Shown here in pieces: positions 8,692-47,954 of a stretch of 64,000 bases of DNA (positions within the stretch are counted from its first letter, which is position 1; each line of letters begins with the position of its first letter). Source of the DNA: Adlercreutzia hattorii (GTDB lineage: Bacteria > Actinomycetota > Coriobacteriia > Coriobacteriales > Eggerthellaceae); contig NZ_AP022829.1 in NCBI RefSeq assembly GCF_011405655.1, positions 2,341,001-2,405,000 of the forward strand. The letters run 5' to 3'. The notes beneath the pieces were generated by a model that was not told where the DNA came from, did no database searches, and was given only the letters and a program-made list of their open reading frames with translations. The translations under genes were made by a program, and so were the position numbers.

Positions 8692-8915
8692 AGCCGTACT
8701 CCTCGCCCTTGCCGCCTTCGGCGCCGCACCGACGCCTTCTTTTTGGAACGCCCAGTATAGCAAGAGGGGCGCCCGCGCTACCGCTGAAGTCGCCCCCTGC
8801 GCCATCTTTCCGCTTCCGAGGCGGCAAGGCGCCTTCAGTGGGGTACGCTTCTGCCGACGAAACCCTGCGGCGCGCAGGCCTTAAGCCCCGGCGCCGCCCA
8901 CGGAAGGAGTGCCCT

Positions 8916-9515
8916 ATGAACGTCGTATGCCTCGATTTGGAAGGCGTGCTGGTTCCCGAAATCTGGATCGCCTTCGCCGAGGAAGCCGGCATCCCCGAGC
9001 TTAAGCGCACCACCCGCGACGAGCCCGACTACGACAAACTCATGAAGTGGCGCCTCGACATTCTGGCCGAGCATGGGCTGGGCCTGCCCGACGTGCAGGC
9101 GGTCATCGCCAAGATCGACCCCATGCCCGGCGCCCGCGCGTTTTTGGACGAGCTGCGCAGCCTCACCCAGGTCATCATCATCTCCGACACTTTCGAACAG
9201 TTCGCCAAGCCCCTCATGGAGAAGCTCGGCTGGCCGACGCTGTTCTGCAACGAGCTGGTGGTAGCCGCAGATGGCGCCATCACCGACTTCACGATGCGCT
9301 GCCCCGAAAGTAAGCTCACCACGGTGCGCGCGCTGCACTCCTGCGGCATCGAAACCATCGCCGCCGGCGACTCTCATAACGACCTGGGCATGATCCTGGA
9401 TTCGAAGGCCGGCTTTCTGTTCCGCACCACCGATGCCATCAAGGCCGAGTACCCGGAGCTGCCGGCCCTGGAAACCTACGACGAGCTGCTGGCCGCCATC
9501 AAGGCCGCCCTATAG
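8916..9515 (+). CDS. thrH: phosphoserine phosphatase / homoserine phosphotransferase ThrH
   Basis: A 199-residue HAD-superfamily enzyme of the ThrH type. It dephosphorylates phosphoserine and can transfer the phosphate to homoserine, linking serine and threonine synthesis. HAD motif I is DLEGVLVPE, motif II is VIIISDTFEQF, the motif III lysine is in PESKL and motif IV is AAGDSHNDLGM. Length and motif spacing fit ThrH. A strong GGAAGGAGT ribosome site precedes the ATG. Transcribed alone, followed by a hairpin at 9521-9547. Confidence 0.92.
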   Translation: MNVVCLDLEGVLVPEIWIAFAEEAGIPELKRTTRDEPDYDKLMKWRLDILAEHGLGLPDVQAVIAKIDPMPGARAFLDELRSLTQVIIISDTFEQFAKPLMEKLGWPTLFCNELVVAADGAITDFTMRCPESKLTTVRALHSCGIETIAAGDSHNDLGMILDSKAGFLFRTTDAIKAEYPELPALETYDELLAAIKAAL

Positions 9516-9520
9516 TTAGT

Positions 9521-9547
9521 TCCGTTCGCCCTAACGAGACGAACGGA
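9521..9547. terminator. hairpin downstream of thrH
   Basis: Arms TCCGTTCG and CGAACGGA with an 11-base loop. There is no T-run, so termination is only probable. Confidence 0.45.
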
Positions 9548-9703
9548 TCCGTCGACGCTGCGGTTCCGACAAGCGCCTGCCCTTTGCGTTCAGCGCTTTC
9601 CCTCACGGCCCAAAGGCCGCCCGGCCGCGCTTCAAGCGAATTGCAGGCACCTGTCGGAACCTCGCTGGCTTCCTTGGGCGAACCTGGTATCTTTTGCATT
9701 CTT

Positions 9704-11554
9704 ATGGAAGAAGCACTCTTAGAAATAATCGCTGCTCTGGAAGCAGGCGAGGATGTTGACGCCGCGTGGCTCGACAAGCTCGTGCGACGGTACAACCGCG
9801 CCGCTCACGACGGCACGCGCCAGGTAGCCAAGCGGCGGCTCCTCCCCTTCTACCTGCGCGTGAAGGCCGAGGAGCCCGAGCGGTGGGCGGCATGGAACAT
9901 AAGCGAGGCGACCGACGCGGCCCTCGTGCGCCTTCTGCAGGCCAAGCCCCGGCGCACCGCCTCAGGCGTGGCCACCATCACCGTGCTCACGAAGCCCTGG
10001 CCGTGCTCGGGCGCCTGCGTGTTCTGCCCGAACGATATCCGCATGCCGAAGAGCTATCTTTCCGACGAGCCGGCCTGCCAGCGGGCCGAACGATGCTGGT
10101 TCGACCCCTTCCTCCAAGTGGCCGCGCGCCTGCGGACGCTGACCGCCATGGGGCACGTCACCGACAAAGTGGAGCTTATCGTGCTGGGCGGCACCTGGAG
10201 CGACTACCCCGAAAGCTACCAGCGCTGGTTCACAGGCGAGCTTTTCCGCGCCTTGAACCTTTCCGACGAGGAGCGCGTCCGCGAGGCGACTGAGCGCCGG
10301 ACATGGTACGAGAGACGCGGCCTCCCCCGCGACCGCGATGCCCTGGCCGCCGCGGCAGCCCCGCTTCAACAGCGCATCGACGCCGGAGAGCTCACCTACA
10401 ACGAGGCGTGGCGGGAGGCCTACAGCGAGGAAGAGGTGCCGCAAAGCTGTTCCTGGGACGATCTTTTCGCCCTGCATCGCGCCAACGAAACGGCACCGAA
10501 GCGCGTCGTCGGGCTGGTGGTGGAAACGCGCCCCGACCTCGTCACCGCCGAGGCCTGCCGCACTCTGCGCGCGCTGGGCTGCACCAAGGTGCAGATCGGC
10601 ATCCAAAGCCTGAACGACGAGACGCTCGCCGCCAACGGCCGCGCCATCACGTCCGCGCGTATCGCCGACGCCATGGCCCTGCTGCGGCAGTTCGGCTTCA
10701 AAAGCCACGTGCACTTCATGGTGAACCTGCTCGGCGCCGACCCCGCTGCCGATGCCGCCGACTATCGCCGCCTCGTCACCGACCCGGCGTTTCTGCCCGA
10801 CGAGGTGAAGCTGTACCCCTGCTGCCTTGTGGAAAGCGCCCGGCTCACCGACTATTTCGAAGACGGCTGCTGGCGCCCCTACACCGAGGAAGAGCTCGTG
10901 GAAGTCCTCGTCCAGGACGTGCTGGCCACCCCGCCCTGGACACGCATCTCCCGCATGATCCGCGACATCTCCGCCACCGACATCCTCGCCGGCAACAAGA
11001 AGACCAACCTGCGCCAAGTGGTAGAAGCCGCCGTTGATGCCACAGACGAGGAGGTTGCCGAGATTCGCTCCCGCGAAATCTCCGTGGAAGGCGCCACCGT
11101 GGGCGACCTTTCCCTTCAGACCATCGCCTACCAGACCGCCGCCACCGAAGAACACTTCCTTGAGTGGATCACCCCCGAGAACAAGATCGCCGGCTTCTGC
11201 CGCCTGTCGCTGCCGACGCCACTTCCCCGCGACACCGCCAACGAGCCTGCTGCCCCTCCCATCAAGAGCGAGCAAAGCGAGGCGAGGGGTTCCTCGCCTG
11301 CTTCCCCCTCCGCACCGCAGGAGGCCATGATCCGCGAAGTGCATGTGTACGGGAAGGTGGCCGCCCTGCACCGCACCGGCGAGGGCACCCAGCATCTGGG
11401 CCTCGGGCGGGCGCTCGTGGAAGAGGCCTGCGCCCAAGCAGCGGCGGCCGGGTACACCGCGATTAACGTCATCAGCGCCGTGGGCGCCCGCGTCTACTAC
11501 CGCAACCTCGGCTTTAAGGACGCCGGGCTCTATCAGAAGCGGCCGCTGCCATGA
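9704..11554 (+). CDS. Elp3-family tRNA uridine-34 carboxymethyl-modifying radical SAM/acetyltransferase
   Basis: A 616-residue Elp3 protein. It has an N-terminal tRNA-binding helical part (1-85), a radical-SAM domain whose cluster cysteines are C101, C105 and C108 (CSGACVFCPND), and a C-terminal GNAT acetyltransferase domain (GLGRALVEEA). Elp3 puts a carboxymethyl group on C5 of wobble uridine using acetyl-CoA and SAM. About 35 Pro/Ser-rich residues are inserted in the GNAT region (bases about 11215-11325). The ATG at 9704 has no Shine-Dalgarno sequence, and TATCTT lies about 10 bases upstream, so the message may be leaderless. Its stop overlaps the next gene by 4 bases, a Trm9-like methyltransferase expected to act on its product. 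Confidence 0.9.
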   Translation: MEEALLEIIAALEAGEDVDAAWLDKLVRRYNRAAHDGTRQVAKRRLLPFYLRVKAEEPERWAAWNISEATDAALVRLLQAKPRRTASGVATITVLTKPWPCSGACVFCPNDIRMPKSYLSDEPACQRAERCWFDPFLQVAARLRTLTAMGHVTDKVELIVLGGTWSDYPESYQRWFTGELFRALNLSDEERVREATERRTWYERRGLPRDRDALAAAAAPLQQRIDAGELTYNEAWREAYSEEEVPQSCSWDDLFALHRANETAPKRVVGLVVETRPDLVTAEACRTLRALGCTKVQIGIQSLNDETLAANGRAITSARIADAMALLRQFGFKSHVHFMVNLLGADPAADAADYRRLVTDPAFLPDEVKLYPCCLVESARLTDYFEDGCWRPYTEEELVEVLVQDVLATPPWTRISRMIRDISATDILAGNKKTNLRQVVEAAVDATDEEVAEIRSREISVEGATVGDLSLQTIAYQTAATEEHFLEWITPENKIAGFCRLSLPTPLPRDTANEPAAPPIKSEQSEARGSSPASPSAPQEAMIREVHVYGKVAALHRTGEGTQHLGLGRALVEEACAQAAAAGYTAINVISAVGARVYYRNLGFKDAGLYQKRPLP

Positions 11555-12585
11555 GCATCGCCGACGAGCAACGCGTTTCCGCATCTGGGGCAACGACCAC
11601 GCAGAGCGCCTCGCAACCCGGCGCCTACTCCCCCCAGGTCATCCGCAAGCTGAACGCCCTCACGAGCGACTTCTACGCCCGCGAGGCCGCCTCGTTCTCG
11701 GCCACGAGACAAGCCCCTTGGCATGGCTGGGAGAAGGCTTGGGAGCTCATCACGGCCCACGATGCCGTGCAAGGCCCCTTCCCCAGCCACGCCGCCCGCG
11801 TCCCCGATGACAGTGCCGGCGATTCCGGGGCGCCCCTCACCATCCTCGACCTTGGCTGCGGCAACCTCCGCTTCGAGCGCTTCCTCGCCGAACACACGAA
11901 CGCCCCCCTGCGCATCACCGCCCTCGACAACTGCCCCGATCTGGCATCTCCCGCAATCGGCGCCCTATCTGCCGCCTTTCCGCACAGCCCTAGCAGCTCC
12001 TCTGCTGCTTCCAAAACGAAAGGAGGGGATGCTTCAGGACAGGGCACGAACCTCCCCGAAAAGACCACCGTAGATCTCCGCGCCCTCGACATCGTGGAAT
12101 CCCTCCTCGACGGCACCTTCGCCGATCGTCTCCCGCGCAACTCCTGCGACCTCGCTGTCGCCTTCGGACTCATGCACCACCTGCCGACAGGCGCCCTGCG
12201 GGCCCGGGTTCTCGAAGGGCTCCTTAGTTCCCTGAGGCCCGGCGGCTTCGCCATCGTGTCGTTCTGGCAGTTCCTGAACGATGCGCGCTTGGCCGCCAAG
12301 GCCGCCGCGGCCACTGCCGAGGGCCGCGTCGCCCACGGCTTGCCCACCTTCCAAGAAAACGACTTTCTCCTCGGTTGGCAGCACGCAGAGGGCGTCTACC
12401 GCTTCTGCCACCATACGCCCGAGAAGGAAATCGATGCCCTCCTCGCCCCCATCCGCAACCCCAGCGCACCTTCTGCCAGCAGCTGCGCGTCCACCGCCTC
12501 CCTCCCCTTGCGTGAGGTCGCCCGCTTCTCCGCCGACGGCAAGCAGGGCAACCTCAACCGCTACCTCATTTTGCAGCGCCTCTAG
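11551..12585 (+). CDS. Trm9-like SAM methyltransferase, probable mcm5U-forming tRNA enzyme
   Basis: A 344-residue class I SAM-dependent methyltransferase. The N-terminal signature FYAREAASFSATRQAPW (residues 41-57) closely resembles the start of eukaryotic Trm9/ALKBH8 methyltransferases (FSxTR...W). It precedes SAM motif I ILDLGCGN (98-105). DLAVAFGLMHHLP and an acidic ALDNCPD are further SAM-fold motifs. Trm9 methylates the carboxymethyl group made by the Elp3 pathway, giving mcm5U. The gene begins inside the Elp3 stop (ATGA overlap), so both are made together. The methylation activity is inferred from family and coupling. Two low-complexity Ser/Ala insertions (residues about 145-170 and 310-325) are unusual. 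Confidence 0.8.
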   Translation: MSIADEQRVSASGATTTQSASQPGAYSPQVIRKLNALTSDFYAREAASFSATRQAPWHGWEKAWELITAHDAVQGPFPSHAARVPDDSAGDSGAPLTILDLGCGNLRFERFLAEHTNAPLRITALDNCPDLASPAIGALSAAFPHSPSSSSAASKTKGGDASGQGTNLPEKTTVDLRALDIVESLLDGTFADRLPRNSCDLAVAFGLMHHLPTGALRARVLEGLLSSLRPGGFAIVSFWQFLNDARLAAKAAAATAEGRVAHGLPTFQENDFLLGWQHAEGVYRFCHHTPEKEIDALLAPIRNPSAPSASSCASTASLPLREVARFSADGKQGNLNRYLILQRL

Positions 12586-12697
12586 CCCAGACGCACCCTC
12601 GTCCCCACCGTTTTCCAGCCGCGAATTCACGGTCTTCCCGTAACAAGCGTCAATTCGTGACTGACCGGAGACCAAAACAGCCCCGTTTGAGAGAAAT

Positions 12698-12747
12698 GCA
12701 GCCGCAAAATGACGCTTGTGACGTCAACATCGTCATTTTGCGGCTGC
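12698..12747. promoter_or_regulatory. perfect 17-base inverted repeat
   Basis: Arms GCAGCCGCAAAATGACG (12698-12714) and its exact complement (12731-12747) enclose a 16-base loop containing TGACGTCA. A CTCTTTT follows on the plus strand. It could terminate the Elp3-Trm9 operon or regulate the YgbA-family gene 75 bases downstream. Confidence 0.6.
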
Positions 12748-12821
12748 TCGCTCTTTTGGCGAAAGTTTGAAGGAGCTAACAAGAACGGCACATCAGCGGG
12801 AAATCTGCTAAAGTGCGCACC

Positions 12822-13175
12822 ATGGCAAGAATACCTGACACCCCCAAAGTCGCTCGCCGCCGCGAGCGCGAGAAGCGCACCATCTCGAACATGGTGGCGA
12901 TTTATTGCGCCGGCAACCACGAGGCGACCGCACGCACCGAGACCAGCCATGCCGGCGAGGCGCTCTGCCCCGCGTGCAAGGCCATCGACGACTACTGCGT
13001 CCTGCGCACCGAGCGCTGTCGGTCCATGGCCCACAAAACAAGCTGCGAGGAATGCGGCAACCACTGCTACGCCCCCGCCCAGCGCGAGCAGATCCGCGCC
13101 ATCATGCGTTACGCCGGTCCGCGCATGATCACGCGCCACCCAATCGCTGCCATCCGGCATCTGCTAAAGAAATAA
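12822..13175 (+). CDS. YgbA-family protein (nitrous oxide-stimulated promoter family)
   Basis: A 117-residue cysteine-rich protein. The pattern ISNMVAIYC, CPACKAIDDYC, RTERC, CEECGNHCY and a C-terminal MRYAGPRMITRHP matches the YgbA family, whose E. coli member is induced by nitrosative stress. Spaced cysteines suggest a metal or Fe-S site. The ATG at 12822 was chosen over one three codons upstream; neither has a strong ribosome site. It is a single gene, convergent with the phosphatase gene. Molecular function is unknown. Confidence 0.82.
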   Translation: MARIPDTPKVARRREREKRTISNMVAIYCAGNHEATARTETSHAGEALCPACKAIDDYCVLRTERCRSMAHKTSCEECGNHCYAPAQREQIRAIMRYAGPRMITRHPIAAIRHLLKK

Positions 13176-13917: not shown

Positions 13918-15597
13918 ATGGCAGAGTTCATCTACCAAATGTACAAGGCCCGCAAGGCGGTGGGCGACAAGGTTATTCTGGACGACGTTACGCTGTCGTT
14001 CTACCCCGGCGCGAAGATCGGCGTCGTGGGGCCCAACGGCATGGGAAAGTCAACCCTGCTGAAGGTCATGGCCGGCCTCGAGGAGGTTTCCAACGGCGAG
14101 GCGCGCCTGACGCCCGGCTACACCGTGGGCATTCTTCTGCAAGAGCCGCCGCTTGAAGAGGACAAGACCGTCCTCGAGAACATTCAGATGGCCTTCGCCG
14201 ATGTGCTGGCCAAAGTGGAGCGCTTCAACCAGATCGGCGAGGAGATGGCCGCGCCCGACGCCGACTTCGACGCGCTCATGGACGAGATGGGCAAACTGCA
14301 GGACGAGATCGACGCCGCCAACGGGTGGGACCTCGACTCCCAGCTCTCCCAGGCCATGGACGCGCTGCAGTGCCCCGACCCGGACGCGCCCGTGAGCATC
14401 CTTTCCGGCGGCGAGCGCCGTCGCGTGGCGCTGTGCCGCCTGCTTCTGGAGCAGCCCGACCTGCTGCTCCTCGACGAGCCCACCAACCACCTGGACGCCG
14501 AATCGGTGCTCTGGCTCGAACAGCACCTGAAGACCTACCCTGGCGCCGTGCTCGCCGTCACCCATGACCGCTACTTCCTCGATCACGCCGCCGAGTGGAT
14601 CTGCGAGGTGGACCGCGGGCAGCTCTTCCCCTACAAGGGCAACTACTCCACTTACCTGGAGACCAAGGCCGCCCGCATGGCCGCCCAAGGCCAGGCCCAG
14701 GCCAAGCTTGCCCGCCGCATGGAGCGCGAGCTGGAATGGGTGCGCAGCTCACCGAAGGCCCGCCAGGCGAAGTCGAAGGCCCGTCTGGCCAACTACGACG
14801 CCATGGTGGCCGAGGCCGGCAAGGCGAAGAAGCTCGACTTCGCGGAAATTCAGATTCCCGCTGGCCCGCGTTTGGGCTCGAAGGTGCTCGTCGCGAAGAA
14901 CCTGCACAAGGAGTTCGACGGCCGCGTGCTCATCGACGACCTGTCCTTCGAGCTGCCTCGCAACGGCATCGTGGGCGTGATCGGTCCCAACGGCGTTGGC
15001 AAGACCACCCTGTTCAAGACCATCGTGGGCCTTGAACCGCTCGACGGCGGCGAGCTGGAAATCGGCGAGACGGTGAAGATCGCCTACGTCGACCAGAACC
15101 GCGCGGGCATCGACCCGGACAAGAAGCTGTGGGAAGTGGTGTCCGGGGGCACCGACTACATGATGGTCGGCGAGACCGAAGTGCCCTCCCGCGCCTACGT
15201 GGCCGCCTTCGGCTTCAAGGGAGCCGACCAGCAGAAGCCCGCAGGCGTGCTCTCCGGCGGCGAGCGCAACCGGCTGAACCTGGCGCTCACCCTGAAGGAG
15301 GGCGGCAACCTGCTCCTTCTGGACGAGCCCACCAACGACCTGGACGTGGAGACCCTCTCCAGCCTGGAGGCGGCGCTGCTCGACTTCCCCGGCTGCTCGG
15401 TCGTGGTCAGCCACGACCGCATGTTCCTCGACCGCATCGCCACCCATATTCTGGCCTGGGAAGGCGACGACGAGAACCCGGGCCGCTGGCACTTCTTCGA
15501 GGGCAACTTCGAGGCCTACCAGGCCGACCGCGAGGCACGCCTCGGCAAGGAAGCCGCCAAGCCCCACCGCCTCCACCGCAAACTAACCCGCGACTAG
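13918..15597 (+). CDS. ettA: ABC-F translational throttle ATPase EttA
   Basis: A 559-residue cytoplasmic ABC-F protein with two ATPase domains and no membrane segments. Both Walker A motifs (GPNGMGKST, GPNGVGKTT), both LSGGE signatures and both Walker B/EPTN motifs (LLLLDEPTNHLD, LLLLDEPTNDLD) are intact. The linker between the domains carries the positively charged helices typical of P-site tRNA interaction motifs (ARRMERELEWVRSSPKARQ). The length and this linker fit EttA rather than Uup or resistance ABC-F proteins. EttA binds the ribosomal E site and tunes the first elongation step to ATP/ADP. An AGGAG site precedes the ATG. Confidence 0.93.
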   Translation: MAEFIYQMYKARKAVGDKVILDDVTLSFYPGAKIGVVGPNGMGKSTLLKVMAGLEEVSNGEARLTPGYTVGILLQEPPLEEDKTVLENIQMAFADVLAKVERFNQIGEEMAAPDADFDALMDEMGKLQDEIDAANGWDLDSQLSQAMDALQCPDPDAPVSILSGGERRRVALCRLLLEQPDLLLLDEPTNHLDAESVLWLEQHLKTYPGAVLAVTHDRYFLDHAAEWICEVDRGQLFPYKGNYSTYLETKAARMAAQGQAQAKLARRMERELEWVRSSPKARQAKSKARLANYDAMVAEAGKAKKLDFAEIQIPAGPRLGSKVLVAKNLHKEFDGRVLIDDLSFELPRNGIVGVIGPNGVGKTTLFKTIVGLEPLDGGELEIGETVKIAYVDQNRAGIDPDKKLWEVVSGGTDYMMVGETEVPSRAYVAAFGFKGADQQKPAGVLSGGERNRLNLALTLKEGGNLLLLDEPTNDLDVETLSSLEAALLDFPGCSVVVSHDRMFLDRIATHILAWEGDDENPGRWHFFEGNFEAYQADREARLGKEAAKPHRLHRKLTRD

Positions 15598-16375: not shown

Positions 16376-17143
16376 ATGGGCGATGAAGACAAATACACCG
16401 AAAGAGAGTTCAGCGAAAAGTTCGAAGAGCTGCGCTGGAATCTCCTGAGCGCCTATCGCCCTACCCTTGAATCGCCACCTCAGGCTTTTTTGCTCGGGGG
16501 CCAGAGCGGGGCAGGGAAAACCACGCTCCACAAGATCATCCATCGCCGACTGGACGGCAATGGCATCAGCATCAACGGGGACGACTATCGAAAGTTCCAC
16601 CCCCGTTTCTTGGAGCTTCAGCGCATCTACGGAGACGAGGCCGTTAACTATACTGCGCCATGGGCAGGACGCATGACCGAGGCGCTTATCGACTCGCTTT
16701 CGCGCATCGGGTACAACCTCGTCATCGAGAGCACGTTGCGCACGGCAGAGGTGCCCCTGAAAACGGCGGAGCTGCTGCGCCAGCGCGGTTACGGGGTGTC
16801 CCTCGCGCTCATGGCCGTAAAGCCGAAGATATCGCTCGTCAGCTGCCAGATACGCTACGAGGAGATGCGCGTGGCCGGCACCACGCCCCGAGCCACCGAT
16901 CCGGCGCACCACAACAAGATCATCGACCAGATCGTCTCCAACCTCGGCGTCCTGGAAGCAAGCGGAATGTTCGACGAGATCGCCCTCTACGACCGAAGTC
17001 AAACGTGCTTGTTCCCTCGCGAAGGGGCCGGCGATAGCGCCGAGGAAGCTTTGCGCACCATCCTCTTCGGCCCCTGGACCTCTGAGGAGCGGCGCCACTA
17101 CAACGAACTCAAGGCCAAGCTAGAACAGCTGCGCAGGAAGTAG
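16376..17143 (+). CDS. zeta-toxin family kinase
   Basis: A 255-residue P-loop kinase of the zeta/PezT family. The Walker A motif GGQSGAGKTTLH, the substrate segment SINGDDYRKFHPRF and the ESTLRTAEV strand are as expected. Zeta toxins phosphorylate UDP-N-acetylglucosamine sugars, blocking peptidoglycan synthesis; some relatives have other targets. The gene follows the HTH gene with 2 bases between stop and start, so they are translated together. No frameshift or missing core residue is seen, so it is probably active and held by its partner. Confidence 0.85.
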   Translation: MGDEDKYTEREFSEKFEELRWNLLSAYRPTLESPPQAFLLGGQSGAGKTTLHKIIHRRLDGNGISINGDDYRKFHPRFLELQRIYGDEAVNYTAPWAGRMTEALIDSLSRIGYNLVIESTLRTAEVPLKTAELLRQRGYGVSLALMAVKPKISLVSCQIRYEEMRVAGTTPRATDPAHHNKIIDQIVSNLGVLEASGMFDEIALYDRSQTCLFPREGAGDSAEEALRTILFGPWTSEERRHYNELKAKLEQLRRK

Positions 17144-31805: not shown

Positions 31806-32942
<1,137 letters not shown>

Positions 32943-33102
32943 GGGGCGCATCATAGCACAGCATGGAGCATCTCTCTTCTCTCCCTGCTCCATCGCGCTC
33001 CGTCCGCGTCTTCGCCTTCCACCTTCCCCTCGCTCACCGCCCTGTGGAGCGCGAGACAGGCATCCCCGCCCGTGCCCACTGCCAATCGTGCTACGCTGGA
33101 AC

Positions 33103-33221
33103 CATGCAGGGGTACCGCCCCGACAAAGCGAGCCAAACCCGTGGCCGCCTCGTCGATGCGGTTGAGAGGGCGCTTGCCCAACCCTTCGAACCTGTCAGCT
33201 AACACTGTCGTAGGGAGCATG
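33103..33221 (+). ncRNA. TPP riboswitch (Thi-box)
   Basis: The core GAACCTGTCAGCTAACACTG, then CGTAGGGA, matches the thi-box, and GGTTGAGAGGG gives the TGAGA loop. The closing P1 stem is CATGC (33103-33107) with GCATG (33217-33221). AGGGGTACC forms P2. It binds thiamine pyrophosphate and lies upstream of thiM, followed by a terminator. Confidence 0.92.
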
Positions 33222-33237
33222 CTCACCAAGCACAAGG

Positions 33238-33268
33238 GGCGCTTCCTGCGGGGAGCGTCTTTCTTTTT
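33238..33268 (+). terminator. riboswitch-controlled terminator
   Basis: A 9-base stem (33238-33246 with 33251-33259, two wobble pairs) followed by TTTCTTTTT. Placed between the TPP aptamer and thiM, it should stop transcription when TPP is bound. Confidence 0.75.
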
Positions 33269-33313
33269 GGCGCGCCCGCAGGCCAGCGCTTCAGCTTCCG
33301 GAAAGGAATCGTC

Positions 33314-34240
33314 GTGACCGAACCTTCCACCTGCGCCATCAGCGCACCTGCAGACGCTTGCGCGTCCCGCAGCACCCGCACCGAGGCAGAGCTTCGGGCG
33401 TTCATGGCCCGTGCCGTGCACGAGGTGCGCGAAACGAATCCGCTGGCGCCTTCCATCACCAACACCGTGACCCAGAACTTCGTCGCCAACGCCCAGCTGG
33501 CCGTCGGCGGCTCGGCGGCCATGGTGTATTTGCCCGACGAGGGCGAATGCGTCGCCGCCCTGGGAGGGGCCGTCTACATCAACCTGGGTACCCTGCTGCC
33601 CGTCTACGAGCAAACGGTTCCCGCCACGGCGCGCGCTTGCGCGGCGGCGGGCAAGCCTTGGGTGCTCGACCCGGTGGGCATCGGCATCGGCAGCCTGCGC
33701 ACCCAGCTCATCGAGGCCGTGCACGAGAATCCCCCGGCCATCCTGCGCGGCAATGCTTCGGAGATCATCGCCGTGGCCGAGCTGTGGGGGCTTGCCGGCG
33801 ACTCGTCCGACGACGCCTCCGGCGACGGTCCCCGCGGCGTGGACAGCACCGATTCCGTGGACGCCGCCGAGCGCGCCGCCGTGGCGTGCGCCCGCTTCAC
33901 CGGGGGTGCGGTGGCCGTCTCCGGTGCCACCGACCTTGTCACCGATGGCGCACAGGTGGCACGGCTTTCCGGCGGCTCGCCCCTCATGACCTGCATCACC
34001 GGCTCCGGCTGCTCGCTGGGCGGCGTCGCGGCGGTGTACGCCTGCGTGGCCGACCCCTTCGTGGCCGCGCTCACCGCGACCGCCGCCTACAACCTGGCAG
34101 GCCTGCGCGCTGCCGAAGCCTGCAGCGGTTCCGGCAGCTTCCAAGTCGCCTTCCTCGACGCGCTCTATAACCTCACCGCCGAGGAAGTGGCCGAGGCGCC
34201 CCTGGCCCTCGCCAGCGCCTCTGGCACGCAGGCCCTGTGA
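33314..34240 (+). CDS. thiM: hydroxyethylthiazole kinase ThiM
   Basis: A 308-residue kinase that phosphorylates 4-methyl-5-(2-hydroxyethyl)thiazole in thiamine salvage. Marks are SITNTVTQNFVAN, AMVYLPDE, the long strand PWVLDPVGIG, RGNASEI and the anion-hole/ATP segment CITGSGCSLGG with the catalytic Cys. A short acidic insertion (about residues 160-178) is unusual. A GTG start is preceded by GGAAAGGAA. The TPP riboswitch upstream shows repression by thiamine pyrophosphate, and a thiamine-binding protein gene follows. Confidence 0.94.
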   Translation: MTEPSTCAISAPADACASRSTRTEAELRAFMARAVHEVRETNPLAPSITNTVTQNFVANAQLAVGGSAAMVYLPDEGECVAALGGAVYINLGTLLPVYEQTVPATARACAAAGKPWVLDPVGIGIGSLRTQLIEAVHENPPAILRGNASEIIAVAELWGLAGDSSDDASGDGPRGVDSTDSVDAAERAAVACARFTGGAVAVSGATDLVTDGAQVARLSGGSPLMTCITGSGCSLGGVAAVYACVADPFVAALTATAAYNLAGLRAAEACSGSGSFQVAFLDALYNLTAEEVAEAPLALASASGTQAL

Positions 34241-34336
34241 CGCCACCAGCATCCGATCCGAAGATCGGTTCCAAGCACCTTACCATTACGGGGTCGAACT
34301 GGCATTTACATCGAAGATTTCGAAAAGGAGAGCCCC

Positions 34337-41459: not shown

Positions 41460-44400
41460 TTATCTGCGACTATTGAATCTTCTGCGACCGACATAGAGCA
41501 GCAAAGAAGCCAGTCCTATAGCAGAAGCGCAAAAGAGAATCAGAGCAATACGCACAGGCAAGCCTAAGCTGTCACTTGTTTCTGCCAAAAAGCCTAAAGA
41601 GCTAGCAGGCTTATCAGTATCAGTGACGGAGTTCGCGTTATCTGTCTGACCCGAATTGATTTCCTGGTTACCTCCTGATGCCTCAGGTGCATCCGAACCA
41701 CCGTTATTCCCTTGGCCACCGTTCATGCTTCCGCTATTGCCCTGATTGGTTCCACCGTTGTCTCCGCCTCCCTGCTCGCCACCACCTGACGGATCGCGTC
41801 CGTCATCGGTTACGCTCACGGCAAGATTCAATCTCTCGCTGTATTCATCAAAAGGCATCCCCTCTTTATATGCGGCGATTCGATACTTCGTATCTCCCGT
41901 AACACTGATAGGTCCGGTGTAAACGCGTCGCGTCCCGTTTGCATCGCAGGGGCAGGTGTCGTCGGTGGTGTAGTAGATGGTCGCTCCTTCGGTGGTGGTT
42001 GTCAGGGTTAGCTTCGAACCTTTCGGTACCGTCACGCTGTTCTCTTTTGGAGCCAACGCATCGAACGTGTTCGTTCCGATGGTTGCGGTGGGCCGCACGG
42101 GTTGCGCTGCATCAGAAGTGGTGCGAATCGCCAGCTCCTTGGAAAGCGACGTGCCAGTTGCCGCAAGGGTGAGCGCCGTCATTCCGGGAAGGTCACCATA
42201 GAGCGAGAACGATGTCTTGCCCTCGGAATCCGTCATGCCAGTTGCGATGCCCTCGCCAGAAGCGTCCAAGGCGCTGATACCGTCGAGCGCCGCGATGCTG
42301 GGCGCATCCACCTGTGCCGTCACCGGCTGGTTCGCCACAGGGGTGCCGTCCGAATAGCGCACGTAGGCCACAACTTGGACAGGTTCAGGAGCATCGCTTT
42401 GCAAGACGACGGCATTCTCATAGTTCGCAACGAGCTGCGCCGGACGTTTCTCGACGGTGAGCGTCTTCGACCATGACCCGAACAGATCGCCCAACGAACA
42501 CTCCGTATAGCTCTTCGCACCGTTCAGCTTCACCGAAACACTTGCTCCTTCGGACAAGGGTTCTTGCGGGTAGATGCGCAGGACCTTGGCAAGCGCTCCT
42601 CCTCCGTCGGCCTCGCTGGCGTCTTTCGAGTCGACCCATTCAAGACGGGCGCTCTCGCCATCCACGAGGGCGCTCGTTCCTGCTCCCTCATCGGCTTTCA
42701 TGTATTGGCTGAATTCCAGCTCTATATATTCGGGGCAGGCATTCGCAGCTACAACGCTTGGCGCCTGCGTTGACTTCAAACCTACCTTCAGCCCGGTTCG
42801 GATGGGGAGCACCGAAAGCCAGTCCGTCCTTGCTACGTCATACCCTTCTTTGGCGACCCTCACCTGATAGAAGCCGGTTGGCGTATCCCATTGGAAGGCT
42901 CCGTCTGCGCCCGTGGTCAGCGTGCCCTCCTGCTCGTAGTCTTCGGCATTCCATTTCCGTGCATTGCGGCCGTTTGCATCGTCTGCAACATAGATGGTCG
43001 CCTTGGCACCTTCTACGGGATTACTATCCAGCGCCTCATATACGATGCCCGACGGGTCGATGATCACATTTGACCCGATGCCGTAGAACTTGTCCCAGTC
43101 GATGATGTTCCTGACATCGTCGCTGCCATTGTTCTTCTTAGGAACTTCCTTGCAAACGCTCTTCCTGTAAGCGGTTGCCTGCTCATAGGCGTTCTTTGCC
43201 TTGTCGAGGTAGTGCGCGCGCAGCAGGTGAATCGAGGTGGATCCTGCATCGATCGCCAACGAGGCCTTGCTCACCACGCCGCCAGCAGTGCTAGCCCCCT
43301 CCGTCACTACAGAGCTGCTCCCCATGGTTGCGACAAGGATGATCGTCGATCCCACCGTGTTCCAATAACCGGTCATTACATCGGTGTAGTTATGGTCGTC
43401 CTCGTTCTCCATGAGCTCTCGGTACTTCTCGGCCGCATCGCGTTCGGCGTAGAGCGCCTTGAGGCAGTTCTGGCATGCTCCATCGCAAGGGTTGCGCTTC
43501 TTGTAATAGAGAATCCATTGGTTTATGGATTCGATGTCGGCTTCAAGGACGCCTAAGGCATCCATGTTGTCTAACCATGAGTCCATGGCGAATCTCAACC
43601 CCACACCACTTCCGATGACGCCGACGCCGCCCAGAACCTGATTGACATTCGTGCACTTTGAGATTTCATTGGCCACCTCTTCTGTCTCCTTAGCCCACAT
43701 CTGGCTCTTCGCCCAGGCTTTCACCATGGGCGTGATCCTCTCAGGCGGAACGTCCTTGAGGATGCGGCGCGCAAGCACGTTGTCGAGCACACTCTTTGCG
43801 CCCTCGTCGATCACGCCGCTCACCATGTCAATCCCCATACCAAAACCATCCAACCCGGCGGCTTTGAGTGCATCCACCTTGGCGGAGCGCATATGGTCAT
43901 CTTTCTCCTTATGTTCTGAGAAATCGACCTTGTAGGTGTTCTGCTTCTTTGCGTTCGGATCCGTAGCTCCTTGGGGTGCGCTTTCCGTCACCAAGCACGA
44001 ATAGCCCGTGTAGACGCCTTCCGTCTTGCCGTCAGCACTGTTCTTCTGCGAGTCGGTGACGTAGAGCTCGGCTTCGAGGCGGCCGTCTTCCAAGGTCTGG
44101 ACTTGGACGCCCTTTGCGCTGTCGCCTTCGGAAACCTTGACGACGCCGCCTAGCTTGTCCTGAAGGCAGTTGTCCATCAGGGCCGACGGTGAGCCCGATG
44201 CGCTCACCTTGCCGATGCCCGCGCTCGTTCCCATGGCATCCAGGCTGTTTCGTATGGAGCGGTTCGTCAGCTTTCCGCACGCATAGTTGTTGTCTATGGA
44301 CTCCTTCATCCTGTGGAAGAAATCCTTCACTTCCTTGATCGTTGCGGCATCCTGACCCGCATACCACCCATCTATCTCCGCATCAGTCGGAATCGAGTAC

Positions 44401-47400
44401 TCGCCGATATCCGGGTCTTCTCCCGTGAAGTAGGGGTCGTCGATCGCAGCAATCCAGGTGTCGTCCGCATCTATGGGTGCACGGAGGCTGTCTAGGCTGA
44501 TATCCGCGCGCTGCGCCTCAATCTCAGCCAGTGAAGCCTGCGCCTCCGCTTCGGTGAGCGTGCCTTCTTTGACACGCTGCTTTATCTCATTTTCGAACGC
44601 CTGTAAGGACGCATCTATTCCTTCGCAGGTTTTGCTCAGCTCGCTGCCGCTGGACGACGTGTCTCCGAACAGATTCTCCAAGTAGAGGTATCTGTCCTTG
44701 GCTTCCTGTTCGGCGCGCTTCTTGATGCGCTCCTTGAAGTCCTCGTCGTCCACGTTCGACGCATAGGCCAAGGCGAAGTTGTTGAACGTATAGGTCTGCG
44801 GGATGAAGAGCTCCTCGGCATCCAATTCGGAGATACTGAAAGACCCCGAGTCGGGATTGTCTGCCAGCAGCTGCAGATAAGTTTCGTCCACGTACTCGCC
44901 GACAAAGCGCGTATATTGCTCGTCGCTTGATTTCTTTGTAAGCGGGATGGCGACCGTCCTGTCGTCCTGCATGACCGCATACATCCATAAGGTGTCGCCG
45001 GCGTTGATCTCGTTGCCTGCTTTCTTCACGGTGACATCGAACGTCCAGTAAGCGCACGATTTCCGGGCAAGCTGGTGATGGATGGTCAGGCATTTGTCGC
45101 TCTCCTTGCCGTCGGCGATGAGATCCTGCGTCCGGCCTTCATTCGTCACCTTAAACGACCAGATCTGTGCCTGGGGTCGGTAGGTGCAGTCCGCATAGGA
45201 AGAGAAAGTGGCTCCTTCTGTGGTAGCAGTTGCATCCACCTTCACACGGTCTCCGTAAAGAAGGGAATCCGTTAGGCCTTCCGGCAGGTCGAAGCCTACC
45301 GTTGCTTTGCCCTTGCTGTTCGTGGTAACCGATTCGCCGACGTTTTGCCCGTTGATGGAAAGCTGTGCGGTTGCGCCCGGACTTGCATAGACGATGGCGT
45401 TATTGCCCTTCTGGCCCACATAGCCGGACGGCACCTCAACGCTCATCCCAAGGGATGCGAACGAAAGATTGCCCGCAGGCACCGTGGCCCCAGAAGCCGA
45501 AAGGGAGAATGGCATCGAATATACCCGTTCCTTCGTCGGTGTCAATGCGATGGATATCACCCCGGAGGTGGCACCAGAAGGGATCTTCACGGAAAGAGCG
45601 CCTTCTCTCGATGTGCATTCGAGGGTCTCGCCCGTATCCAACGCGGCTGATGCGTCGCTGTAATCGTTTCGGGGAATGTCAAACGTGAGGGTCGCATCCA
45701 TGGATCGGTCGAATTCGTAGCTGATCTGAAAGATTGCTTCGCAGTCGACGACAACGGAGCTTTGAGGCATCTTCGCAGTGACGGACTTCACGCCGATCGA
45801 TGCCAGGGCATCCTCCGCCTTGAAATCGGGAACGCTAAGCGCAAGTGCGCTGGTAGCTTCGTCTTCGATGCGAATGTCCCCACTGGCATAGGGAAACGCG
45901 AGTCGCTTGATCACGCCTAGGTGAGAGGCGCTTACATTCAGTGAGGGCTTGAATGCCACTATCGTGTAATCGCCTGCCTTCAGTTTGCCGGTATCGAAAT
46001 GCCAGGCGGGATTCTCTTGGCCGTCAGGCCAATACACTTGCGCATAACCATCCTGGATGCACCGGGCATTGCTTGCAGTGCCGTCGAACACCAGCACGCG
46101 GCTCGTCCCTTCGAAGGCGGCGTTGAGCGAGATGGTCGCACTGCCCCAGCGCGGAAGGACGGCGGCGAACTCTCCCGCTTCTTCGTTGAAAGTTGCAGTT
46201 GCAGGGGAAAGAGCGAGCGACTCTGCAGGGGTCACTTCAAGGGAAAGCTCGGCGAGGGCGGCAGGATCGTTGGCGAGCGATTCGGACAAGATGAGTTGAC
46301 CGCGCTGCACCAAGTAATCGTCGGTGGCGCTCTCACCCGTCAGGTTTTTCCCTGGCTTGAGCTCTGCGCCGTTGCGCTTCAACGTAAACGAAAGGCTGTT
46401 CCAATTGGATACGGGAGCATATTCGGGATTGCCGCCGGTATCGCTGCTTCCCGTTTTGCATCGCAGGCTTATGGGATAGACCCGCTGAACCGCCAGTTTC
46501 GAAAAAACGGTTATCGTGCCCGCGTCCCAATCGCCCGTCATCTGTCCAGCGGGACGCAGCAGCTCCTTGTCGTAATACCCTGGCATCGTTATGGTGATGA
46601 GCGTTTCTACAGCAGGTTTTAAGCCTTCTGCCGTGAAGGCGCCGTCATCCGCAACGTTTGCTTGATAGGTGGAATCACCCTGCTGCACGATAACCTTCAC
46701 GTCGGTTGTCGCGACACCCTCGGGAAGGTCGAGTTTACCCGTGACCTTCACGGTATTGACGTCGTCGTCGAGCCAAACCCAATTGATTCCTTTTCCTTTC
46801 TCTAGCTGTGAGAGCTTCCAGGGGTCTGACTCCGTTCCGTCTGTGCGCTTCTTGTAGGCATAGACAGTGGATCCATCATCGCAGGGTGCGTATAAGCTGT
46901 CTGCGTCATAGACACCATTGCGCGCGAGGCACACATCCGGGTTGTCGATGCGCAATTTGACGGCACCGCATGAGCAGAATGCCGAGTAGAGGTACTTGAG
47001 AGATGACGGCAACACGATAAGCTCCTGCGAGGAAAGCCCTGTGCAGTCGGTAAATGCATCGTAGAGGCACTCTATGCCGCTGCCGTCTGGGGAAGTCTCA
47101 AATGCAACGGAGGTAAGGTCACCTTTCCTACCTGCCGTGAAGGCGCCCTCTTCGATCTCCTTGACGAAGCTGGGGAATGTGACACTTTTAAGATGTTGGT
47201 AGTTGAATGCAAACATAGGGATATAGACGTCGTAGCTTCCGTCGAGCACAGCTGCTATGTCCATCGATTCAAGGCCGCCGTCCCCATAGAGCATGACCAC
47301 GTCGCGGGTTTGCCCATCGACCGTATGCTCATAGCCCTTGTTGAGATAGGCATACACTTCGGCATCATGCAGTGGGTCCGGCGCTTGCCAGCCGCAATCG

Positions 47401-47954
47401 AACGACCAGCCCGGATCGTTCCAGTAGCCGTTGTCCTGCACGAGCGTTCCTACCCACATCTTCTTACCGGAGCAAGAGGCGGACGTCTTCCATAGGAGCG
47501 ACTTGTCCAACTCGGGGTAGTTTTCGCATTCATAGTTGTCCAGCGTGGCAAGGTTCTGGGCATCCACGCCGCTCGCAAACGGGTTGGGGCCTGGTTCTGT
47601 GGACGCTTCTGTGACTGGCTGGCTATCTTCGGCGCCTTCTGCCACATCAGCATCATCCGAAGAGACAGTAGACCGGTCCGAAGCATCCTCATCCGGAACC
47701 TCTTCGTCGGAAACGGATGCGCCATCAAGCAATATGTTGCTGGAGACTGAAAGCGCATCATCGGGCACATCGACTTCAGAATCGCTCACAGGGAGCAGTG
47801 CCGCCTGAACGTCTTCGCTCGCGACTGCGTCCACCCGACTTGAATCTTCGGCAAATCCGACGATGGGACACATGGTCACAACCAGTGCCAAGGAGAGTGC
47901 GACGGCACAAGCTTTTGCAAAAGGAGATTTTGCTGTCTTGCCTTTTCTGGGCAT
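41460..47954 (-). CDS. giant (2164-residue) secreted surface protein
   Basis: A signal peptide (residues 1-35, ALSLALVVTMCPIVGFA) begins the protein. An acidic Ser/Asp-rich region follows to about 130. Then comes a leucine-rich, BspA-like stretch (about 230-350, with HLKSVTFPSFVKEIEEGAF and LSSSLKYLYSAF-like units). Several Ig-like and carboxypeptidase-regulatory-like beta domains follow. A helical middle (about 1080-1600) includes a cysteine pair CDGACQNC and hydrophobic patches. A chitobiase-type C-terminal domain (EGATIYYTTDDTC), a Gly/Asn-rich stalk and a membrane helix with RRR end it. LAETSDSLG before the helix could be a variant sortase signal. Its base composition is lower in GC than the neighbours. 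Confidence 0.85.
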   Translation of the reverse strand: MPRKGKTAKSPFAKACAVALSLALVVTMCPIVGFAEDSSRVDAVASEDVQAALLPVSDSEVDVPDDALSVSSNILLDGASVSDEEVPDEDASDRSTVSSDDADVAEGAEDSQPVTEASTEPGPNPFASGVDAQNLATLDNYECENYPELDKSLLWKTSASCSGKKMWVGTLVQDNGYWNDPGWSFDCGWQAPDPLHDAEVYAYLNKGYEHTVDGQTRDVVMLYGDGGLESMDIAAVLDGSYDVYIPMFAFNYQHLKSVTFPSFVKEIEEGAFTAGRKGDLTSVAFETSPDGSGIECLYDAFTDCTGLSSQELIVLPSSLKYLYSAFCSCGAVKLRIDNPDVCLARNGVYDADSLYAPCDDGSTVYAYKKRTDGTESDPWKLSQLEKGKGINWVWLDDDVNTVKVTGKLDLPEGVATTDVKVIVQQGDSTYQANVADDGAFTAEGLKPAVETLITITMPGYYDKELLRPAGQMTGDWDAGTITVFSKLAVQRVYPISLRCKTGSSDTGGNPEYAPVSNWNSLSFTLKRNGAELKPGKNLTGESATDDYLVQRGQLILSESLANDPAALAELSLEVTPAESLALSPATATFNEEAGEFAAVLPRWGSATISLNAAFEGTSRVLVFDGTASNARCIQDGYAQVYWPDGQENPAWHFDTGKLKAGDYTIVAFKPSLNVSASHLGVIKRLAFPYASGDIRIEDEATSALALSVPDFKAEDALASIGVKSVTAKMPQSSVVVDCEAIFQISYEFDRSMDATLTFDIPRNDYSDASAALDTGETLECTSREGALSVKIPSGATSGVISIALTPTKERVYSMPFSLSASGATVPAGNLSFASLGMSVEVPSGYVGQKGNNAIVYASPGATAQLSINGQNVGESVTTNSKGKATVGFDLPEGLTDSLLYGDRVKVDATATTEGATFSSYADCTYRPQAQIWSFKVTNEGRTQDLIADGKESDKCLTIHHQLARKSCAYWTFDVTVKKAGNEINAGDTLWMYAVMQDDRTVAIPLTKKSSDEQYTRFVGEYVDETYLQLLADNPDSGSFSISELDAEELFIPQTYTFNNFALAYASNVDDEDFKERIKKRAEQEAKDRYLYLENLFGDTSSSGSELSKTCEGIDASLQAFENEIKQRVKEGTLTEAEAQASLAEIEAQRADISLDSLRAPIDADDTWIAAIDDPYFTGEDPDIGEYSIPTDAEIDGWYAGQDAATIKEVKDFFHRMKESIDNNYACGKLTNRSIRNSLDAMGTSAGIGKVSASGSPSALMDNCLQDKLGGVVKVSEGDSAKGVQVQTLEDGRLEAELYVTDSQKNSADGKTEGVYTGYSCLVTESAPQGATDPNAKKQNTYKVDFSEHKEKDDHMRSAKVDALKAAGLDGFGMGIDMVSGVIDEGAKSVLDNVLARRILKDVPPERITPMVKAWAKSQMWAKETEEVANEISKCTNVNQVLGGVGVIGSGVGLRFAMDSWLDNMDALGVLEADIESINQWILYYKKRNPCDGACQNCLKALYAERDAAEKYRELMENEDDHNYTDVMTGYWNTVGSTIILVATMGSSSVVTEGASTAGGVVSKASLAIDAGSTSIHLLRAHYLDKAKNAYEQATAYRKSVCKEVPKKNNGSDDVRNIIDWDKFYGIGSNVIIDPSGIVYEALDSNPVEGAKATIYVADDANGRNARKWNAEDYEQEGTLTTGADGAFQWDTPTGFYQVRVAKEGYDVARTDWLSVLPIRTGLKVGLKSTQAPSVVAANACPEYIELEFSQYMKADEGAGTSALVDGESARLEWVDSKDASEADGGGALAKVLRIYPQEPLSEGASVSVKLNGAKSYTECSLGDLFGSWSKTLTVEKRPAQLVANYENAVVLQSDAPEPVQVVAYVRYSDGTPVANQPVTAQVDAPSIAALDGISALDASGEGIATGMTDSEGKTSFSLYGDLPGMTALTLAATGTSLSKELAIRTTSDAAQPVRPTATIGTNTFDALAPKENSVTVPKGSKLTLTTTTEGATIYYTTDDTCPCDANGTRRVYTGPISVTGDTKYRIAAYKEGMPFDEYSERLNLAVSVTDDGRDPSGGGEQGGGDNGGTNQGNSGSMNGGQGNNGGSDAPEASGGNQEINSGQTDNANSVTDTDKPASSLGFLAETSDSLGLPVRIALILFCASAIGLASLLLYVGRRRFNSRR

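Follow-up and report, generated by a model that had tools for sequence, protein, structure and literature searches.

Eukaryotic Trm9 acts together with Trm112. In the many-gene eukaryotic pathway of Elongator and Trm9–Trm112 or ALKBH8, 5-carboxymethyluridine (cm5U) is converted to 5-methoxycarbonylmethyluridine (mcm5U) in tRNA, and the yeast carriers of mcm5U or its 2-thiolated form (mcm5s2U) are given in PMC5372719 as the Lys UUU, Gln UUG, Glu UUC, Arg UCU, and Gly UCC tRNAs. In archaea, Elp3 and Trm9 homologues have been known since 2008 to lie in a gene cluster in Sulfolobus solfataricus, and mcm5(s2)U formation was proposed at that time (PMC2584109, PMC5372719). Elp3 is also known in some bacteria, and archaea and bacteria with Elp3 lack Elp1, Elp2, and Elp4–6, as described in PMC6367351 and PMC13315578. 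For Bacteria, a 2020 review (PMC7694415) lists only 5-carboxymethylaminomethyluridine (cmnm5U), 5-methylaminomethyluridine (mnm5U), and 5-aminomethyluridine (nm5U). Here, we analyze the window, that is, the whole 64,000-nucleotide stretch comprising bases 2341001–2405000 of the single contig of the 2.9 Mb Adlercreutzia hattorii genome, in which an elp3 gene overlaps a gene for a Trm9-like methyltransferase. We consider it quite likely that the two proteins form a two-enzyme wobble-uridine pathway leading from cm5U34 to mcm5U34, with MnmA probably adding the 2-thio (s2) group. The relevant features are as follows, where SAM denotes S-adenosylmethionine.

9704..11554 (+): Elp3, radical SAM plus GNAT-type acetyltransferase, predicted cm5U34 synthase, 616 residues
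10004..10027 (+): Elp3 iron–sulfur (Fe–S) cysteine motif CSGACVFC, residues 101–108, three conserved Cys
11551..11554 (+): ATGA, four-base overlap of the Elp3 stop and the methyltransferase start, from the frame coordinates
11551..12585 (+): Trm9-like class I SAM methyltransferase, predicted cm5U34 carboxyl methyltransferase, 344 residues
11695..11721 (+): methyltransferase N-terminal signature FSATRQAPW, residues 49–57, aligned with Trm9 TRYKPW
12361..12411 (+): methyltransferase lid hairpin D271–H287 (D..L.W ... RFCH), Trm9 counterpart DVMVPW ... RYYH
31806..32993 (-): MnmA, tRNA 2-thiouridine(34) synthase (NF001138, TIGR00420), possible third step, unlinked to the pair

The locus resembles the archaeal systems (the Sulfolobus cluster and the Haloferax homologues) in placing a stand-alone Elp3 beside a Trm9 homologue and in that mcm5(s2)U34 formation is proposed without other Elongator subunits. 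It differs in that thiolation is assigned to Tuc1/NcsA in archaea and is predicted to fall to MnmA in this bacterium, and in that no Trm112 scores over the cut-off in the genome. The predicted chemistry and the tRNA set are likewise those of the eukaryotic pathway, but two genes stand in for many, again with no Trm112 over the cut-off. What appears to be new is therefore the bacterial, apparently Trm112-free version, the archaeal Elp3–Trm9 clustering being already known; no description of a bacterial Elp3–Trm9 pair was found among the literature titles and abstract openings listed, a scope in which subscription journals were mostly not included.

The original prediction identified the upstream gene as a bacterial Elp3, and this holds: the protein scores 361.7 bits against TIGR01211, narrowly above the curated cut-off of 350, and keeps the catalytic residues. 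For comparison, the Elp3 proteins of six actinobacterial genomes outside Coriobacteriia score 594–605 bits. The top PDB sequence match is 5l7j, annotated "ELP3 family" (E 2.7e-78), which we take to be Elp3 from Dehalococcoides mccartyi (DmcElp3); on this assumption, the window protein carries ≈80 extra N-terminal residues, since residue 3 of 5l7j aligns to residue 81. DmcElp3 positions were transferred through the alignment to 5l7j and followed in 78 sequences, namely, the window protein, 71 of 75 Elp3 frames from the surveyed loci (four of ≤450 residues were excluded beforehand), and six more sequences. DmcElp3, a bacterial Elp3 too, has its catalytic residues in common with the window protein: K77, K193, E386, and Y441, named as conserved residues of the acetyl-coenzyme A (acetyl-CoA) pocket in PMC6367351, correspond to K155 (77/78), K333 (78/78), E545 (76/78), and Y598 (75/78). 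The Fe–S ligands C101, C105, and C108 are each found in 77 of the 78, and the exceptions at all of these positions are gaps, X, or one S. The same source states that Zn is bound by linker Cys in the Elp3 of bacteria and archaea and that eukaryotic Elp3 is without them. The five coriobacterial rows inspected do not show these Cys and read IRSRE, IRYRE, or IRFRE; three rows from outside Coriobacteriia show a CxCIRCRE linker by eye. Since eukaryotic Elp3 also lacks the Zn linker Cys, their absence is no bar to Elp3 membership. Given the narrow TIGR01211 pass, the retained catalytic residues, and the missing linker Cys, the window protein is by sequence an Elp3 of divergent type.

The second claim, that the methyltransferase is functionally tied to Elp3, is supported by both gene adjacency and joint presence and absence. 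In a survey that kept 80 loci out of 253 methyltransferase relatives from genome contigs, Elp3 is present at 75 loci, and the pairing is thus beyond chance. Gene order is divergent in 67 loci, Elp3-then-methyltransferase in seven, and the reverse in one, with five lacking Elp3 in the stretch. In each gene tree, the eight collinear overlapping loci, the window among them, form a single clade (support 0.999 and 1.0) made up of Adlercreutzia and Enterorhabdus records; two other Adlercreutzia records (L062 and L080) are divergent.

Among 148 Coriobacteriia genomes of ≥90% completeness, Elp3 (E ≤ 1e-30) is found in 73, 70 of them above the curated cut-off. For the methyltransferase, a profile search (E ≤ 1e-5) gives 72 genomes and a single-sequence search (E ≤ 0.001) gives 71. 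Both genes are present in 72 genomes, Elp3 only in one (G087), the methyltransferase only in none, and neither in 75. The two genes lie ≤4 kb apart in 68 of the 72, with 65 divergent pairs and three collinear ones, all three in the window's genus. Presence and absence change in step within genera: both genes are present in G117 and neither in G103 (genus g11), and both are present in G035, G059, and G073 and neither in G047 (genus g23). One genome counted in the 72, G031, has an Elp3 match that begins past a run of 201 N (L140:3381–3581), and all that is left of its methyltransferase match is a C-terminal fragment of 54 positions ending 187 bases before that run, so that neither gene may be intact there. 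In a wider sample of 296 Actinomycetota genomes, Elp3 occurs in 28 and the methyltransferase (E ≤ 1e-13, a line set afterwards inside a gap from 4e-14 to 2e-8) in the identical 28, which include six outside Coriobacteriia; in four of these (G179, G201, G212, and G355), the genes are divergent on one contig, 0.2–1.8 kb apart. The methyltransferase profile reaches model position 232 or beyond in five of the six and 176 in the sixth. Profile matches in eight other actinobacterial genomes (1.8e-8 to 9.0e-6) were dropped from the 28-genome count; they are confined to model positions 48–172 and resemble a generic SAM domain. The survey of actinobacteria that the original prediction had called for thus returns the pair in 72 of 73 Elp3-bearing Coriobacteriia and in the same 28 of 296 Actinomycetota. 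Distances in the Elp3 and methyltransferase trees correlate with r 0.69 (60 of 72 rows, 12 without a near-complete Elp3 frame having been dropped; best of 999 shuffles, 0.14), a congruence that we do not count because species relatedness alone can yield it.

In this sample, G049 holds two full-length methyltransferase copies (C4:255276–256094 and C6:123767–124522), of which only the C6 copy adjoins Elp3. The methyltransferase match of G137 (C1:394322–395047), 78 kb away from Elp3, is interrupted by an in-frame TAA, which suggests decay or a split gene.

The methyltransferase itself (METHYLTRANSFERASE), whose closest relatives in named genomes are from Adlercreutzia, is on sequence grounds best read as a Trm9 homologue. 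Searched alone against the PDB with phmmer, it has a sole match at E ≤ 0.1, the Trm9 chain 5cm2_Z. The profile search proposed earlier as a check points the same way, with 5cm2_Z first among PDB sequences for the family profile in one run (E 1.6e-6) and Yarrowia Trm9 (5cm2) first for a 67-row profile (1.3e-7; runner-up, 5.1e-4). Methyltransferases from outside Coriobacteriia are shorter and nearer Trm9: one such relative, from another actinobacterial class, matches 5cm2_Z at E 9.8e-18 over 193 residues, the best of all PDB sequences, in an alignment that extends to the C-terminal region holding DVMVPW and RYYH, and a joint profile matches 5cm2_Z at 2.1e-20. Archaeal relatives were sought in plasmid records, where 4 of 138 matched records were examined; a haloarchaeal protein (L191) bears most of the signature (FAATR...W, HH, RFYH, and N) by eye in one alignment, in which three generic methyltransferases (L192–L194) are without it.

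The N-terminal signature FSxTR..W noted originally is indeed present as FSATRQAPW, with F49, R53, and W57 found in all 72 aligned relatives and S50 being S in 67. R53, H209–H210, R284, and N336 are also invariant (72/72), and we match them to ScTrm9 R29, H115, R241, and N271 by a numbering that is partly our assumption, for N in particular; the aligned 5cm2 letters cover the R, H, R, and Y positions, not N. In ScTrm9, mutants of R29, H115, R241, Y243, and N271 have lower tRNA affinity and kcat, according to PMC5372719. In the lid hairpin, which aligns to 5cm2, D271, R284, and H287 are found in 72/72, and an AlphaFold model predicts two strands at 271–276 and 279–287, similar to the lid of Yarrowia Trm9, which the same source describes as two-stranded. 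Profile search, retained residues, adjacency to Elp3, and joint presence and absence together support the Trm9-like identity put forward in the original prediction.

Several observations weigh against this assignment or against the pathway. Direct similarity between the window methyltransferase and Trm9 is weak (E 0.007 over 49 residues), and the counterpart of Trm9 Y243 is C286, a Cys in 71 of 72 relatives and A in one; in the six relatives outside Coriobacteriia, it is C, Y, F, or V. We call the protein Trm9-like rather than a proven Trm9 because of this Cys. When two AlphaFold models (predicted local distance difference test scores of 85.1 and 95.1) were searched by Foldseek and VIA-align, Foldseek E-values ranked Trm9 only 4 and 5, VIA-align Z scores were led by METTL6 and NTMT1/2 (18–19), and Trm9 was not among the best 50 VIA-align rows. 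The Fisher p of 3e-42 for co-occurrence in the 148 genomes ignores genome relatedness. The two genes are 242 kb and 78 kb apart on one contig in G118 and G137 and on different contigs in G017 and G142, and in G087, which has Elp3, no methyltransferase was found by the locus profile, by tblastn (none better than E 0.04), or elsewhere in the genome. Finally, Trm112 (PF03966) has no match over the cut-off in the window's own genome (best E 0.014), where a distant partner is possible.

In one alternative, Elp3 makes cm5U34 and the methyltransferase acts at a different atom or position of these tRNAs, for example as a METTL6-like 3-methylcytidine-32 (m3C32) enzyme or by other methylation of the anticodon loop, having been recruited for its activity on Elp3-modified tRNA. 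METTL6 scores highest or close to highest by VIA-align (7ezg, Z 19.2, root mean square deviation 3.2, 221 aligned; Z 18.4 for the other model), and Trm9 is not singled out there, but METTL6-named chains are missing from the sequence-profile matches at E ≤ 1, where Trm9 comes first, and the residues matched to the tRNA site of Trm9 are invariant, so that we regard this alternative as unlikely. In each VIA-align search, the best 50 rows lie within ≈2.3 Z units of one another and hold METTL6, NTMT1/2, CmoM, and many small-molecule methyltransferases; overall fold was dropped as a family discriminator and counted neither way, since it does not separate class I methyltransferases.

CmoM performs the same kind of reaction as that predicted here, and a CmoM-like enzyme could esterify uridine 5-oxyacetic acid (cmo5U) or another carboxyl-bearing U34 instead of cm5U. 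The fold comparison lends this some color (8joz, Z 17.2, root mean square deviation 2.8, 199 aligned), but the profile matches at E ≤ 1 do not include CmoM, the E-values of chains annotated as tRNA (cmo5U34)-methyltransferase or YecO are no better than 0.006–0.009, and co-occurrence with Elp3 favors cm5U over cmo5U, which makes this reading very improbable. A methyltransferase that modifies a small molecule or a protein, with its place beside Elp3 being incidental or regulatory, would fit the widespread fold, the generic Pfam domains, and the lack of any NCBIfam match near its cut-off, but is scarcely credible in view of the joint presence and absence in samples of 148 and 296 genomes, a pattern that extends beyond Coriobacteriia. 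Pfam returned generic methyltransferase domains only, and the sole NCBIfam match, RquA, was rejected (E 0.047; 13.4 bits against a cut-off of 175).

Preferring a Trm9-type role, we infer the substrates, the products, the order of the steps, and independence from Trm112 from the known chemistry of the two families and the genomic evidence, on which all of the predicted steps rest. Elp3 would work without the other Elongator subunits. Its GNAT domain would hydrolyze acetyl-CoA, and radical SAM chemistry would join the acetate unit to C5 of U34 to give cm5U34, following the mechanism proposed in PMC13315578. The Trm9-type methyltransferase would then esterify the cm5U34 carboxylate with SAM to give mcm5U34. 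In tRNA-Lys(UUU), tRNA-Gln(UUG), and tRNA-Glu(UUC), MnmA could add s2 to yield mcm5s2U34, and the Arg(UCU) and Gly(UCC) tRNAs would remain mcm5U34. The window's own genome encodes Lys-UUU, Gln-UUG, Glu-UUC, Arg-UCU, and Gly-UCC tRNAs, plus Leu-UAA.

The original prediction also drew on the presence of MnmA in the window and proposed mcm5s2U as a product. The gene is there, at 31806–32993 (NF001138, 407.8 bits against a cut-off of 284; TIGR00420, 344.3 bits), but it lies ≈19 kb from the pair and occurs in 147 of 148 Coriobacteriia regardless of Elp3, and its location is therefore no evidence of coupling. The s2 part of the proposal is plausible, as MnmA and the relevant tRNAs are present, and is not specific.

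The MnmE–MnmG(–MnmC) pathway, which makes 5-methyluridine derivatives (xm5U34), also targets U34 in overlapping tRNAs and also involves MnmA thiolation, but unlike the Elp3–methyltransferase pair it is nearly missing here: MnmE (E ≤ 1e-40) was found in 0/148 Coriobacteriia and MnmG in 1/148, absences that are not absolute, as only the best 7–10 candidates were scored per genome (7 of 36 for MnmG in the window's own genome), and this too tempers the case. In that genome, the MnmE match is limited to the GTPase region and under the cut-off. The usual bacterial route therefore seems to be missing, and the pair would replace it. The lone MnmG match (G062:C8:4785–6362) may reflect horizontal transfer or contamination. 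Separately, 75 of the 148 genomes have neither Elp3 nor the methyltransferase, while MnmE/MnmG occur in at most one genome of the sample.

On balance, we lean toward a broader view in which mcm5U34 and mcm5s2U34 exist in Bacteria and two or more actinobacterial groups carry a Trm112-independent Elp3–Trm9 unit that has been inherited, lost, and rearranged as a pair and works with MnmA and without MnmE/MnmG. The two groups meant are Coriobacteriia, with the divergent Elp3, and small-genome relatives outside the class, whose Elp3 is close to the archaeal model. If this is true, two enzymes would suffice in common gut bacteria to make a wobble nucleoside regarded as characteristic of eukaryotes, with a proposed occurrence in some archaea, and they would provide a minimal, Trm112-free system for studying Elp3 and Trm9 chemistry. 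Such a pair would make up for the lack of MnmE/MnmG in these genomes and would make it possible to test cleanly which form functions in bacteria, cm5U or its methyl ester.

As for the locus itself, the frames 9704–11554 and 11551–12585 agree with the four-base overlap described at the outset. The Elp3 frame is open upstream as far as a TTG at 9584; we take the start to be 9704 (MEEALLEII), and the A. caecimuris row carries the same residues. No consensus promoters were found across 8800–13000. The pair is flanked by ThrH upstream and a YgbA_NO family gene downstream, and ≈1.3 kb past it lies a gene for the translational throttle ABC-F protein EttA (13918–15597, +). A Zeta/PezT-type toxin gene follows at 16376–17143 (+), with 143 bits for Pfam Zeta_toxin and 242 bits for NCBIfam PezT, the latter under its cut-off of 470. 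A 433-residue frame at 32951–34252 (-) overlaps the MnmA start and may not be a gene; it has zero matches in Pfam (E ≤ 0.001) or NCBIfam (E ≤ 1e-5). Further along, a 2164-residue protein (41460–47954, -) has Pfam matches to the chitobiase C-terminal domain and Fn3-associated repeats near its C terminus and a weak carboxypeptidase-regulatory-like match further in.

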